Shown here: piece after piece, positions 29,141 to 62,790 of the stretch
Numbering within the stretch: the first letter of the stretch is position 1
Layout of the letters: every line of letters begins with the position of its first letter
Assembly (NCBI RefSeq): GCF_024138395.1
Contig: NZ_JAMYDU010000006.1
Coordinates: 186,001-250,000, forward strand
Source: Pseudomonas mandelii
GTDB lineage: Bacteria; Pseudomonadota; Gammaproteobacteria; Pseudomonadales; Pseudomonadaceae
Length of the DNA stretch: 64,000 bases
Reading direction: 5' to 3'
Position numbers and translations under genes: made by a program
The notes under the pieces: generated by a model
What the model was told of the DNA's origin: nothing
Databases searched by the model: none
What the model saw: the letters and a program-made list of their open reading frames with translations, nothing else

Positions 29141-29896
29141 GATCGTGTACATATCCGTTTCTGCGGTCACGGCCGCTGGCGGTTTCGCTCTTACAGCGAG
29201 TCCCTTTTCCAAACGCCGAAAAGGAACCAAAAGGCTTTGCCCCGCCATTCGGTGCCTCGCCCAGGCTCGGCATGCCCTCACTCCGGCATTGCTCCGGGGG
29301 CCCGCCGCCATCGGCCATCCATGGCCGGGGGCGGCTACCGCGGCATCCTTGCCGCGGTGCCCCCTACGCAATACCTGCGTTCGGCCTCTGGGAAAGGGGC
29401 GGCAGATCAAGATCAAAAGCCAAAGCCAAAGCCAAAGCCACGGCAACGGCAAGATCAACAGCTTCGCGAGCAAGCCCGCTCCCACCGTTGGGTTGGGTAC
29501 ATCCGGCGAAGATGGGTCGGCTGACAGATTGCCATCGCAGGCAAGCCAGCTCCCACAATAGATCGGCGTACGACAGCGCTTTTCACCACTCAACAGGCCG
29601 AGCGTTAGCTCGCCTGCAGCTTTTGATCTTGATGCACCGCCCCCTCGAGAGGCCGAGTGGAGGTTCTGCGCAGTGGGCAACCCGGCATGGATGCCGGGTT
29701 AGCCGCGCACGGCCATGGATGGCCGATCGCGGCGGGCCCACGGAGCAGGGCCGGAGCGAGGGCATGCCGAGCCTAGGCGAGGCACCGAACGACAGGGGCA
29801 AAAGCGCTTTGGTTACTTTCGCGCTTTTCGAAAGTGACTCGCTGTAAAAGCGAAACCAATAGAAGCCATGACCGCAGAAATGGATATGTACACGAC
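29141..29896. repeat. Long imperfect inverted repeat, ~280-bp arms, no gene
   Basis: Left arm 29141-29421 and right arm 29619-29896 are reverse complements with scattered differences. Shared landmarks are GTGTACATATCC, TTACAGCGAGTC, GGCTCGGCATGCCCTC, ATCGGCCATCCATGGCC and ATCAAGATCAAAAGC. Each arm contains its own small hairpin (ACCGCGGCATCCTTGCCGCG and its AACCCGGCATGG counterpart). The 197-bp spacer contains a six-base tandem run (AAAGCC x4, about 29416-29440) and two REP half-sites (29463-29486 and 29532-29558). Frames across it have no convincing coding features. Confidence 0.85.
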
Positions 29897-34880: not shown

Positions 34881-35141
34881 TTCAGCTGCTGTACCCGTAG
34901 GACCGCAATACCGTAGATGCTGCGGCGCAGGCTTCAACCGGCGCCGTAGTTTTAACCTGGGCAGCAGCTTAAAAGGCTGCCGCTCTTATTTTGAAGAAAT
35001 GAGACAAGCAGGGGCATCCGGGCTGGTACCCGGACTATCAGCGTGATCCTAAGTGGCTTGTTTTAGTCGCTGCATTCGGACTTCTGCAAGTTTGCTCGGT
35101 GTCGACGCCGGTGGTGTTCCCCTAACCGAGGGTGACCAAGC

Positions 35142-40777: not shown

Positions 40778-40911
40778 GACAATAAGAAACCACGGCGGTA
40801 TGGCCCGTCGTGAGCCTTGCATGCAAGACTCACCGCGGAATATCCGCTGGACGCAGTCTTGCGTAGCTGCACCGGTTGTCCGGAAAGGTTACGCAAGCAG
40901 CAGTCACAGGT

Positions 40912-40939
40912 GGTGCGGCACTTGAACAAGTGCAGCACC
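40912..40939 (+). promoter_or_regulatory. Stem-loop in the lpd-sucC leader
   Basis: GGTGCGGCACTTG and CAAGTGCAGCACC form a 13-bp arm pair with a mismatch and a very small loop, 35 bases before sucC. There is no T-run, so it is not an intrinsic terminator. A processing or mRNA-stability role is inferred. Confidence 0.4.
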
Positions 40940-40973
40940 GAATGCGCAGTACCTAACGAAGACGGTAATAAGC

Positions 40974-57779: not shown

Positions 57780-57980
57780 CACGGGGTTTCCCATATTTCA
57801 GGCGTCAAAAAATCCGCTTTCCTGCAAGAAGGCAGGCTGCGCAAAGGTTCAAAATGGTCTTAAGCGCTTAGATGTAAACGAGAAACCGATAAGTCACATA
57901 AAGATCGATTGAATTTGCAAATGAGGTTGATAGCGGGCATAGTCGCGGCTTCTTCAAAACTATCAGCCACGGTCGTGCCC

Positions 57981-58631
57981 ATGCTAAATCGCTTCGCACC
58001 CCTCGTGCCTCTCGCACTCGTCACCCTGTTGTTCGGTTGCGCTGCTCACTCTCCAGTGTCCCAGCAAGAGCCAAAACAGCAGGTTTCAAATTCAGTTACC
58101 GCGCAATCTTCCGTTCTTTTCCAGGAAGCTCTTTACCAAGATGGCGTGGCCACCGATAAAGAACTGGCAGACTTCGCCGGCGGCAAGTCATATCAGCTTC
58201 CGGTTCTGGCCGACAGCATCCTCGAACGTGGCATGTCTCTGATCGGTACCCGTTACCGTTTCGGCGGCACCTCCGAGGCTGGCTTCGACTGCAGCGGCTT
58301 CATCGGTTATCTGTTTCGTGAAGAGGCCGGCATGAACCTGCCGCGCTCCACTCGCGAAATGATCAACGTTGACGCTCCTCTGGTTGCTCGCAGCGCCCTC
58401 AAGCCGGGTGACCTGCTGTTCTTCGCCACCAATGGTCGTCGCGGTCGTGTCAGTCACGCCGGGATCTACCTGGGTGACAACCAGTTCATCCACTCCAGCA
58501 GCCGCAAAAGTGGTGGTGTCCGGATCGATAGCCTGGGCGACAGCTACTGGAGCAAGACCTTCATCGAAGCCAAGCGCGCACTCGCGATGGCGCCCGCTGC
58601 GACCCCGGCTATCGTCACGGCACGCAAGTAA
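57981..58631 (+). CDS. NlpC/P60 (C40) cell-wall peptidase, lipoprotein
   Basis: 216-residue lipoprotein: signal MLNRFAPLVPLALVTLLFGC with lipobox LFGC (Cys20), then an NlpC/P60 endopeptidase domain with catalytic Cys in GFDCSGFIGYLF (about 100), catalytic His in RVSHAGIYLGDNQFIHSS (about 151) and a third polar His in FIHSSS. It cleaves peptidoglycan stem peptides in the family. The ATG at 57981 is chosen over an in-frame TTG at 57909 because it opens the signal. Tandem paralogue follows. Confidence 0.9.
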   Translation: MLNRFAPLVPLALVTLLFGCAAHSPVSQQEPKQQVSNSVTAQSSVLFQEALYQDGVATDKELADFAGGKSYQLPVLADSILERGMSLIGTRYRFGGTSEAGFDCSGFIGYLFREEAGMNLPRSTREMINVDAPLVARSALKPGDLLFFATNGRRGRVSHAGIYLGDNQFIHSSSRKSGGVRIDSLGDSYWSKTFIEAKRALAMAPAATPAIVTARK

Positions 58632-58796: not shown

Positions 58797-59333
58797 ATGA
58801 CGATGTCGGCCCGCCTCGCACTCATGTTCTTCGCAGCGCTGCTCAGCGCCTGCGCCAGCCGCACACCGCCACCTGCGCCGGTGGTTCGCGCTCCGATTGT
58901 TTTTGGTCCTTCCCAAGCCTTTTCCCCTGCGGCGGAAGACGTGCTGTTTCGCGCGTTGGGCCTGGTGGGAACGCCTTATCGCTGGGGCGGCAACACGCCG
59001 GATTCCGGGTTCGATTGCAGCGGTTTGATCGGCTATGTGTATCGCGATGTCGCAGGCATTTCCTTGCCGCGCTCCACCCGCGAGATGATCGGCATGCAGG
59101 CCCCTAGTATCGGCAAGGAAGGCCTGCAAACCGGTGATCTGATTTTCTTCGCCACCAATGGCGGCTCCCAAGTCAGTCACGCCGGGATCTACGTCGGCGA
59201 AGGCCGCTTCGTCCACGCGCCAGCCACGGGCGGCACGGTCAAGCTGGACAGCTTGTCCAAGGCTTACTGGCAGAAGGCCTATCTGAGCGCCAAGCGCGTC
59301 TTGCAACCCGGGCACTTGGCACAAAATCCGTAG
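58797..59333 (+). CDS. NlpC/P60 (C40) cell-wall peptidase, lipoprotein (second copy)
   Basis: 178-residue paralogue of the previous gene. The signal ends in lipobox LSAC (about Cys19), followed by a short Pro-rich segment and the catalytic domain: GFDCSGLIGYVY (Cys), QVSHAGIYVGEGRFVHAP (His). Length is 38 residues shorter, mostly in the N-terminal linker. It has its own ribosome site and lies after a terminator, so it is likely expressed separately. Confidence 0.9.
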   Translation: MTMSARLALMFFAALLSACASRTPPPAPVVRAPIVFGPSQAFSPAAEDVLFRALGLVGTPYRWGGNTPDSGFDCSGLIGYVYRDVAGISLPRSTREMIGMQAPSIGKEGLQTGDLIFFATNGGSQVSHAGIYVGEGRFVHAPATGGTVKLDSLSKAYWQKAYLSAKRVLQPGHLAQNP

Positions 59334-61611: not shown

Positions 61612-62084
61612 TTTCAGGTGCTCTGTGACCTTGGTCGACAGAGTGAAACAGGGAAGCCGGTGAGTGAATTTCTTCCAGCGAAGAATGATCACGATCCCGG
61701 CGCTGCCCCCGCAACGGTAAATGAGTGAAGACTGCGCGAGGGCCTGTCATCAGCTTTTTCCTATACCGCGTTGAGGTCTGAAAGCGGACCAGGCAAGGCG
61801 CAGTCCGCTGGTAATGGTTGTTCCCTTACCAAGGACTGCAACGCAGTCTGGTCCGCTTTCAGACACAACCCGAAGGGCCGGGCCTGCTGTGGCGCAGGGC
61901 TGCGTTGCTCGGAGCTTGTTTGGAATGACCAAACCACGCTCCTCGCGCCTTGCCCTGCACCACAGCAGGCCCGGCGCGGTATAGGAAAAAGCTGATGACA
62001 GGCCCTAGCCACTGTGTCGACTGTCGATATGGGAAGGCGCGCAGTCGGGCGCAAGCCGCTCATGAGCCCGGAGACCGGCCTGAT
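61612..62084 (+). ncRNA. Cobalamin (B12) riboswitch, split by an inserted element
   Basis: Conserved parts appear in order: ACAGGGAAGCCGGTGAG (61666 on), CCGGCGCTGCCCCCGCAACG and GTAAATGAGTGAAG, then GACTGCGCGAG; after the insertion AGCCACTGTG, GGGAAGGC, GCGCAGTCGGGCGCAAGCCG, CATGAGCCCGGAGACCGGCC. CAGG (61615-61618) pairs with CCTG (62079-62082) in P1. Adenosylcobalamin binding would lower expression of cobO-cobB. The 268-bp interruption sits in the variable peripheral domain before GCCACTG. Confidence 0.88.
61739..62006. mobile_element. 268-bp palindromic insertion inside the B12 riboswitch
   Basis: Perfect 32-bp terminal inverted repeats (61739-61770 and 61975-62006, AGGGCCTGTCATCAGCTTTT at the outer end). 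Inside are two large hairpins in tandem: 61776-61864 (GTCTGAAAGCGGACCAG arms) and 61877-61975 (GCCGGGCCTGCTGTGG arms, one mismatch). No transposase gene fits inside. MITE-like by structure; a structured RNA extension is the alternative. No clear target duplication was seen. Confidence 0.75.
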
Positions 62085-62093
62085 TCATCCAAC

Positions 62094-62123
62094 GGCATCA
62101 CGGTGGGCGATGCCAGGCTTTTT
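62094..62123 (+). terminator. Candidate terminator of the riboswitch expression platform
   Basis: GGCATC / GATGCC stem with a 9-base loop, then AGGCTTTTT, between the aptamer and cobO. It is weaker than other terminators in the window. Confidence 0.4.
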
Positions 62124-62178
62124 GCCGTCTATTCTTGTGCCTGCCCGCCGTTATCCAGCCTCAACGGAGAGCTCCCCC

Positions 62179-62790
62179 ATGACTGATACTCCCGATCGTG
62201 ACGAACGCCATCTGGCGCGCATGCTGCGCAAAAAAGCCGTGATCGACGAACGCATCGCCAACTCGCCGAATGAATGCGGTTTGCTGCTGGTGCTGTCCGG
62301 CAACGGCAAAGGCAAGAGCAGCTCGGCGTTCGGCATGCTTGCGCGGTCCATGGGCCACGGCATGCAGTGTGGCGTGGTGCAGTTCATCAAGGGGCGCACC
62401 AGCACCGGTGAGGAGCTGTTCTTTCGGCGCTTTCCGGAGCAAGTGCGTTTTCATGTGATGGGCGAGGGGTTCACCTGGGAAACCCAGGACCGCCAACGCG
62501 ACATCGCCGCCGCCGAAGCCGCCTGGGCGGTGTCCCGCGAACTCTTGCGCGACCCGTCAGTTGGTTTGGTTGTTCTTGATGAGTTGAACATTGCCCTCAA
62601 GCATGGCTACCTCGATCTCGATCAGGTGCTCAGCGACTTGCAGGCGCGTCCGCCGATGCAACACGTGGTGGTCACCGGTCGTGGCGCCAAACCGGAGATG
62701 ATCGAACTGGCCGACACCGTCACCGAAATGGGCATGATCAAGCACGCCTTCCAGGCCGGAATCAAAGCGCAAAAAGGCGTCGAGTTGTGA
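62179..62790 (+). CDS. cobO: Cob(I)yrinic acid a,c-diamide adenosyltransferase
   Basis: Adds the adenosyl group to cobalt in cobalamin synthesis or salvage (BtuR/CobO type). 203 residues: a short N-terminus (MTDTPDRDERHLARMLRKK), P-loop LSGNGKGKSSSAFGMLARSM, WETQDRQRDI and LDELNIALKHGYLDLDQVL, and a C-terminal MIELADTVTEMGMIKHAF. ATG at 62179 follows CGGAGAG; a longer frame through the riboswitch is rejected. It is coupled to cobB 10 bases downstream. Confidence 0.95.
   Translation: MTDTPDRDERHLARMLRKKAVIDERIANSPNECGLLLVLSGNGKGKSSSAFGMLARSMGHGMQCGVVQFIKGRTSTGEELFFRRFPEQVRFHVMGEGFTWETQDRQRDIAAAEAAWAVSRELLRDPSVGLVVLDELNIALKHGYLDLDQVLSDLQARPPMQHVVVTGRGAKPEMIELADTVTEMGMIKHAFQAGIKAQKGVEL

Follow-up and report, generated by a model that had tools for sequence, protein, structure and literature searches.

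A palindromic MITE, very probably of the IS5 family, within the cobO cobalamin riboswitch of Pseudomonas mandelii

Results

The cobalamin riboswitch upstream of cobO in Pseudomonas mandelii was interrupted by a palindromic block of 266 bp. The block is very probably a non-autonomous MITE of the IS5 family (IS427-like), which would be tolerated as an extra arm of the RNA, and the leader carrying it was perhaps recombined between species. The following features of the locus were assigned in the window, i.e., the whole analysed stretch of 64,000 nucleotides (GCF_024138395.1, contig NZ_JAMYDU010000006.1):

61599 to 61737, forward strand: cobalamin riboswitch of cobO, 5′ portion, through the first strand GACTGCGC of the stem; RF00174 match from 61599
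61738 to 61739, forward strand: GA preceding the element, where TA is modal in the family
61740 to 62005, no strand assigned: palindromic MITE, very probably IS5 family (IS427-like), 266 bp, GGGCCTGTCATCAG...CTGATGACAGGCCC
61740 to 61770, no strand assigned: perfect 31-bp inverted repeat at the left end
61776 to 61864, no strand assigned: inner hairpin 1 with the conserved internal-loop motif GCAAGGCGC / GCAACGCAG
61877 to 61975, no strand assigned: inner hairpin 2 with the motif GCAAGGCGC / GCAACGCAG in reverse orientation, read by eye
61975 to 62005, no strand assigned: perfect 31-bp inverted repeat at the right end
62006 to 62007, forward strand: dinucleotide TA after the element
62008 to 62097, forward strand: 3′ part of the riboswitch with the GCCACTG arm, the 3′ strand of the stem (62039-62046) and the GAGCCCGGAGACCGGCC core, carried over by eye from the RF00174 alignments of empty relatives
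62179 to 62790, forward strand: cobO, cob(I)yrinic acid a,c-diamide adenosyltransferase, from NCBIfam; reading frame open in three species

The palindrome and its host riboswitch

The initial annotation had described a 268-bp palindrome at 61739-62006 inside a cobalamin riboswitch, just before the GCCACTG box, with 32-bp perfect terminal inverted repeats and two internal hairpins. This description held, with the exact limits of the palindrome set at 61740-62005 (GGGCC...GGCCC). The terminal repeat was perfect over 31 bp from 61740 and comprised 32 bp when the outer A/T pair (A 61739, T 62006) was counted. The outer inverted-repeat arms were located at 61736-61770/61975-62009 (35 nt, 97%), those of inner hairpin 1 at 61776-61792/61848-61864 (17 nt, 100%) and those of inner hairpin 2 at 61877-61900/61952-61975 (24 nt, 96%). 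The element was built of the outer stem, the two inner hairpins and a small CCCGAAGGG hairpin between the two. Folded as DNA, 61739-62006 reached −116.7 kcal/mol, whereas shuffled sequences averaged −48.6 (z −18.3) and none of 200 equalled the native value. The element held no transposase gene; the one overlapping ORF of at least 80 aa (61761-62063, reverse strand) extended beyond the right border.

The window leader matched RF00174 of Rfam with 40.5 bits at a gathering score of 31.5, and the 3′ end of the match was misplaced into the first ~22 bases of the element. Fifteen cobO leaders of other genomes were scored with the same model. The 13 empty leaders reached 91.2-106.7 bits over the full model, the leader of species G114, which holds a stump of the element, reached 93.5 bits over the full model and the filled leader of species G083 reached 40.1 bits. 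Conserved boxes and helices known from RF00174 flanked the insert on both sides and empty orthologues matched the full model, but unlike the RF00174 norm, a peripheral arm of the window aptamer was broken by 266 bp. According to the alignments to RF00174, the element entered the aptamer on the 5′ side of a short internal loop, where the GACTGCGC/GCGCAGTC stem gives way to the GCCACTG arm. The stem is formed by GACTGCGC (61730-61737) and GCGCAGTC (62039-62046), with pairs from 61730-62046 through 61737-62039. Downstream of the riboswitch, cobO and cobB were identified with NCBIfam at 276.6 bits (NF004637) and 433.1 bits (NF002204), respectively.

Elsewhere in the window, the cis-regulatory RNA motifs sucA-II and sucC of Rfam were present at 34920-35138 and 40903-40972, in full length and well above gathering scores. 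Two TwoAYGGAY RNA matches were located ~310 bp apart on opposite strands (29298-29362, reverse; 29675-29739, forward); both were partial to the model and slightly above the gathering score. The adjacent reading frames 57909-58631 and 58797-59333 resembled related NlpC/P60-type lipoproteins when their translations were compared by eye.

Predicted effect on the switch

The leader was folded by RNAfold with 61741-62006 either cut out or present, a comparison that is blind to tertiary contacts and co-transcriptional folding. Without the block, 89 pairs had a probability above 0.5, and 88 of these stayed above 0.5 with the block. The one lost pair was 61738-62038, the last of the lower stem (0.67 to 0.13). 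Pairs between the block and its surroundings above 0.2 were confined to the closing pairs of the block's own stem. An effect of the insert on folding, which had initially been considered, was thus not reflected in the predicted aptamer pairing. By secondary-structure prediction, the insertion would be tolerated by the aptamer, and the switch probably still works, since the outer stem would stand as an extra arm with the predicted aptamer pairing kept.

The insertion could also have damaged or rewired the switch, with RNase III cutting the stem or folding being slowed, leaving cobO constitutive or off. The outer stem represents a duplex of ~31 bp in the leader RNA, MITE stems in mRNA are reportedly cut by RNase III in the case of Correia elements (PMC10969869) and G114 carries an internal deletion. 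However, the near unchanged predicted pairing, the open cobO frame with mainly synonymous changes between species and the occurrence of the filled allele in two species argue against damage, which is considered unlikely. RNase III cutting of the long duplex is, we think, the likeliest route to any effect.

Copies in the genus and origin of the block

At least partial copies of the element were detected at scattered sites in 166 of 398 Pseudomonas genomes, an undercount because two candidates per genome were scored. A full search of twelve genomes picked for good matches gave between 3 and 13 matches per genome, a count that includes matches of the palindrome to itself. The window genome had one full copy and one 75% partial match, and a covariance model of hairpin 1 gave one further weak match (C17:57216, 34.5 bits). 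The second copy of the window genome, G000:C20:15445-15550 (L125, L309), had kept hairpin 1 and differed in the outer arms and the second hairpin. In phage records, no match to the element was found; plasmid records held partial matches in five cases. Ninety copy loci were taken, two of which (L019 and L085) were dropped as contig edges, leaving 88 copies at 52 distinct sites.

The stretch after the element was matched in 389 of the 398 genomes. Among these, the 30 cobO leaders most similar to that of the window (L036-L065, window genome included) comprised 26 empty leaders, two filled ones (window genome and G083), one with a stump (G114) and one that was unreadable by pattern (L050). The linker of the empty leaders was CTTGA or similar. 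The genus-wide search and the comparison of cobO leaders, both proposed with the initial annotation, thus returned scattered copies in other contexts and empty sites in relatives. The annotation had left the choice between a MITE and a structured riboswitch module. The MITE is favoured because copies were scattered at unrelated sites and the cobO site was empty in 26 of 30 leaders; the module reading did not stand.

Evolution of the block within the riboswitch, as an additional structured RNA module that aids B12 sensing or signalling, would agree with the very stable independent fold and with the covariation of pairs across copies (60 of 109, see below). The covarying copies, however, occupied scattered unrelated sites, and the block was missing from the 26 empty leaders and had lost its interior in the sister species G114. 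When 60 of the 90 copy loci were compared with Rfam, only the two cobO loci matched a known RNA at gathering score; the block itself matched no family, with the two cobalamin matches straying slightly into the element. A riboswitch module is therefore regarded as highly improbable.

Flanks and target sites

Two of the 52 sites, L016 and L084, had poor end repeats and were left out of flank counts and alignments, leaving 50 sites. The commonest flanks were TA/TA, with 14 of the 50 sites with clear inverted repeat, and the cobO copy had GA/TA. The left position −1 was A in 37 of 50 sites and the right position +1 was T in 39 of 50; these counts depend on a boundary script that favoured GG ends and complementary ends. 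Eight insertion sites were compared with element-free relatives. A TA-type duplication fitted at L032 and L067, and a clean target duplication was absent at L013, L009, L075 and L011. With the GG..CC ends of the element, TA and CTAG duplications are hard to tell apart; the four-base CTAG duplication was rejected in favour of TA because several TA/TA sites had no outer C or G.

Five of the 50 sites were inside the loop of an inverted repeat (score of at least 9), compared with ~0 expected. Relative to shuffled left/right pairs, the mean inverted-repeat score of the sites also indicated a preference for palindromic targets (permutation p 5e-5). The cobO site, with an inverted-repeat score of 4, was outside the palindrome-loop set. 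Copies in loops of strong DNA inverted repeats were L140, L132, L013, L030 and L069, with L140 and L132 being terminator-like with a T run. At the site of L075 and L148 (six copies), a copy of the same family was located right after a start codon, presumably that of tatC, and relatives read ATGAGCGATCTCCCC there.

Alleles of the cobO leader

In G083, the insertion was at the same base as in the window genome and inside a contig of 70,554 bases. The stump in G114, AGGGCCTG ATGA CAGGCCCT, comprised 20 bp corresponding to the two ends of the element and is best read as the product of a 248-bp internal deletion between CTG repeats. A second such deletion likely occurred at another site in G005, where AGGGTCTGTCATCAG remained and met the right flank at a TCATCAG repeat. 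At further sites (L119-L124), the MITE occurred in forms shortened by internal deletion, of 52-58 bp and about 164-172 bp. Repeats are prone to misassembly, but the identical insertion base in G083 and the matching stump in G114 leave next to no probability for an artefact of assembly or contamination. The exact pre-insertion cobO site was unrecovered because the flanks were GA/TA and the empty linker was CTTGA or similar. Possibly, the element inserted between G and A with no duplication.

Between the window genome (G000) and G083, the element differed at 2 of 268 sites, and the riboswitch differed at 3 of 140 sites in the 5′ part and 4 of 93 in the 3′ part. The genes showed more differences, with 40 of 612 sites in cobO and 36 of 594 in the first part of cobB; at fourfold sites, the values were 14 of 100 and 22 of 117, respectively. 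Codon changes in cobO were 31 synonymous and 5 nonsynonymous, and the reading frame was open in all three species (G000, G083, G114). The leaders of G083 and G114 differed at 0/140, 2/93 and 0/78 sites, and their cobO genes at 34/612. The empty leader of G237 differed from that of G000 at 10/140 sites in the 5′ part and 6/94 in the 3′ part, and the empty leader of G005 at 16/139 and 1/94, respectively. Positions 62101-62178 were nearly invariant in every comparison made (0 to 2 differences).

The segment of low divergence of ~600 bp coincided with the leader. As the leader with the element was less diverged than the adjoining genes in the three species, the sequences suggest that the allele may have moved between them by homologous recombination in a tract of ~600 bp. 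Constraint or older mosaics may account for some of the low divergence, because 62101-62178 was near-invariant everywhere and G005 was empty yet had only 1/94 differences in the 3′ part. The insertion may instead have been selected for a changed B12 control, with the leader allele spreading between species for that reason. The few changes in the element compared with the fourfold sites of cobO and cobB, and the coincidence of the conserved segment with the leader, agree with selection. However, the leader of G114 was near-identical to that of G083 even though very little of the element remained in it, and hitchhiking in a neutral recombination tract, or simple constraint acting on the leader, fits the data equally. 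Selection for altered control is thus rated as improbable, and a tolerated insertion in a leader that was perhaps recombined is preferred.

Autonomous relatives and end classes

The 30-base end of a related MITE copy in Halomonas was used in a search that led to IS5-family insertion sequences. An IS on a plasmid of Halomonas sp. A020 carried GGGCCTGTTGACGTTT at both ends with TA flanks, the same 16 bases as both MITE ends in Halomonas sp. PA16-9. Its transposase matched NF033580 with 281.6 bits. Among the genus genomes, 84 of 298 matched this transposase at 1e-10, in many cases distantly and in part; in the window genome, none was found at this threshold. Four 855-bp IS relatives in the genus (L175-L178) had TA-bordered ends of the type GGGTCTGTTGCCGTTTC. 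In G228, one contig carried the IS5 transposase in two overlapping frames with the left end GGGGGCGTTCTCA and another the 3′ part of the transposase with the right end GGGGGTGTTCTCA; no contig had both ends.

The best 80 of 532 transposase relatives were kept and 28 of these loci were examined. TA was outside both ends in 21 of the 28, as located by a script that favoured TA, and these autonomous relatives comprised 818-908 bp. GTTCTCA was present at both ends in 12 of the 28 loci. The MITE end classes GGGCCTGTTGACG and GGGGGCGTTCTCA were matched to ends of autonomous ISs. For the end class of the cobO copy, GGGCCTGTCATCAG, the closest end among the 28 loci was GGGCCTGTCGTCAG of an IS from a Hyphomicrobiaceae MAG (L266), with 13 of 14 bases. 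An IS5 transposase bearing the exact end of the cobO copy was not found in the IS and transposase searches made. A pattern search for GTTCTCA-class ends in 16 genomes (up to three mismatches) returned only complete copies, mini copies and solo ends, with no IS-size pair seen by eye; 13 solo-end loci were looked at. Plasmid searches with 30-mer ends of the cobO copy's class and the GTTCTCA class gave weak hits only (E 0.4 or worse).

The IS5 family and an IS427-like type are assigned because the TA flanks and the two overlapping frames seen among the autonomous relatives match the description of the IS427 group; the group label is based on these traits rather than on ISfinder. An IS630/Tc1-like origin, suggested by the TA flanks, was rejected, with IS5 transposases with matching ends found instead. 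A Tn3-type MITE (MITEPsy2, TIME) was also rejected, as the ends and flanks of these elements are different.

Conserved core and covarying arms

Fifty aligned copies were evaluated against the 109 pairs of the cobO copy's structure. Of 5429 cells, 95.7% were paired; at least two Watson-Crick types were found for 60 of the 109 pairs and at least three for 32, figures obtained without a shuffle control and with the structure taken from one member. Because the two sites (of 52) whose end repeats were poor had been omitted, this set favours pairing of the outer stem. The conserved part of an ordinary MITE would be expected to be its ends. In the 50 copies, the outer stem was the most variable part, with both arms changing together, and the inner hairpins mostly kept their sequence.

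The covariance model of hairpin 1 at 1e-4 was matched in 73 of 293 genomes of the order, representing 43 of 118 genera. Ten loci of this search (L297-L306, two in the same genus; window species, G083 and G114 excluded) were inspected for ends. A script that favoured A/T found an end pair in eight loci and none in two; of the eight pairs, four were flanked by TA at both ends and seven at one end or more. The end classes included GGGTCTGTTGACG, GGGTCTGATGGTG, GGGTCTGTTCCCG, GGGGGCGTTCTCA and others.

The end classes of the MITE resembled those of different IS5 lineages. From these sequences, we infer that MITE copies may use different IS5 lineages and that the arms of the palindrome are corrected against each other. 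A tentative, rather doubtful extension is that one ancient non-coding core of two inverted hairpins, both with the GCAAGGCGC/GCAACGCAG motif, may have spread through much of the order on different IS5/IS427 ends. On this reading, arm-to-arm correction rather than a fixed sequence would keep the palindrome and therefore allow the core to occupy natural hairpins, including an arm of the B12 riboswitch, as a tolerated RNA arm.

Discussion

In the proposed course of events, a non-autonomous IS5-family (IS427-like) MITE would have inserted into the cobO cobalamin riboswitch on the 5′ side of a small internal loop that joins the GACTGCGC/GCGCAGTC stem to the GCCACTG arm. Its long outer stem would project as one extra arm and the pairing of the aptamer would be kept. 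The insertion is common to two Pseudomonas species, and an internal deletion between CTG repeats would have left the 20-bp remnant in a third. The leader segment with the element may have moved between these species by homologous recombination.

Several MITEs have already been described from Pseudomonas, including MITEPsy1 and MITEPsy2 (PMC3189936), TIMEs (PMC4133298) and the SBW25 repeats (PMC2718517). MITEPsy1 of Pseudomonas syringae is, like the present family, short, without a transposase gene and bounded by IS-type terminal repeats. These repeats resemble those of ISPsy2, whose family is given as 'IS5?', and the target is TA-centred, CTAG or YTAA (PMC3189936). MITEPsy1 is smaller, however, at 100 nt, with repeats of 18 nt and a duplication of 4 nt (PMC3189936), whereas the present family comprises ~266 bp, is built on a three-arm palindromic core and falls into several end classes. 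TIMEs are derived from Tn3 and share with the present MITE a similar form (262 bp), the lack of autonomy, inverted ends and folded transcripts, but their ends are of the Tn3 type and 38 bp long, and their duplications comprise 5-6 bp (PMC4133298). Correia and ERIC elements are likewise palindromic and mobile, enter mRNAs and can alter RNA processing (PMC10969869).

Tabulated members of the IS427 group such as ISPsp10 and IS1248 comprise 832-865 bp and nearly all have a 2-bp duplication, which is TA in ISPsp10; several have two overlapping frames (PMC4133298, PMC3281130). One element of the group combines the TA duplication with two frames (PMC4133298), and the group is characterised by two frames and mostly 2-bp duplications (PMC3281130). 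These ISs resemble the autonomous relatives found here, with 818-908 bp and TA outside both ends. The MITE differs from them in having no coding part and has only the ends in common.

In the accessible text of the open PMC literature searched, no report of the present MITE family or of a MITE within a cobalamin riboswitch was found. The family may be new, unless R200 or another SBW25 repeat (PMC2718517) belongs to it. In a review on the subject, the formation of riboswitches or terminators by MITEs is called merely conceivable (PMC10969869).

One riboswitch was present in close species as a natural series of an empty form, a filled form with 266 nt and a form with a 20-nt hairpin remnant. With this allelic series, it can be tested directly whether a cobalamin riboswitch tolerates a large insertion in its peripheral domain. 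The family also illustrates that strong covariation of pairs across copies can stem from a mobile DNA palindrome and is no proof of a functional RNA. One core apparently occurs across many genera and is bounded by ends resembling those of several IS5 lineages, which raises the testable question of how MITEs change their partner transposases.
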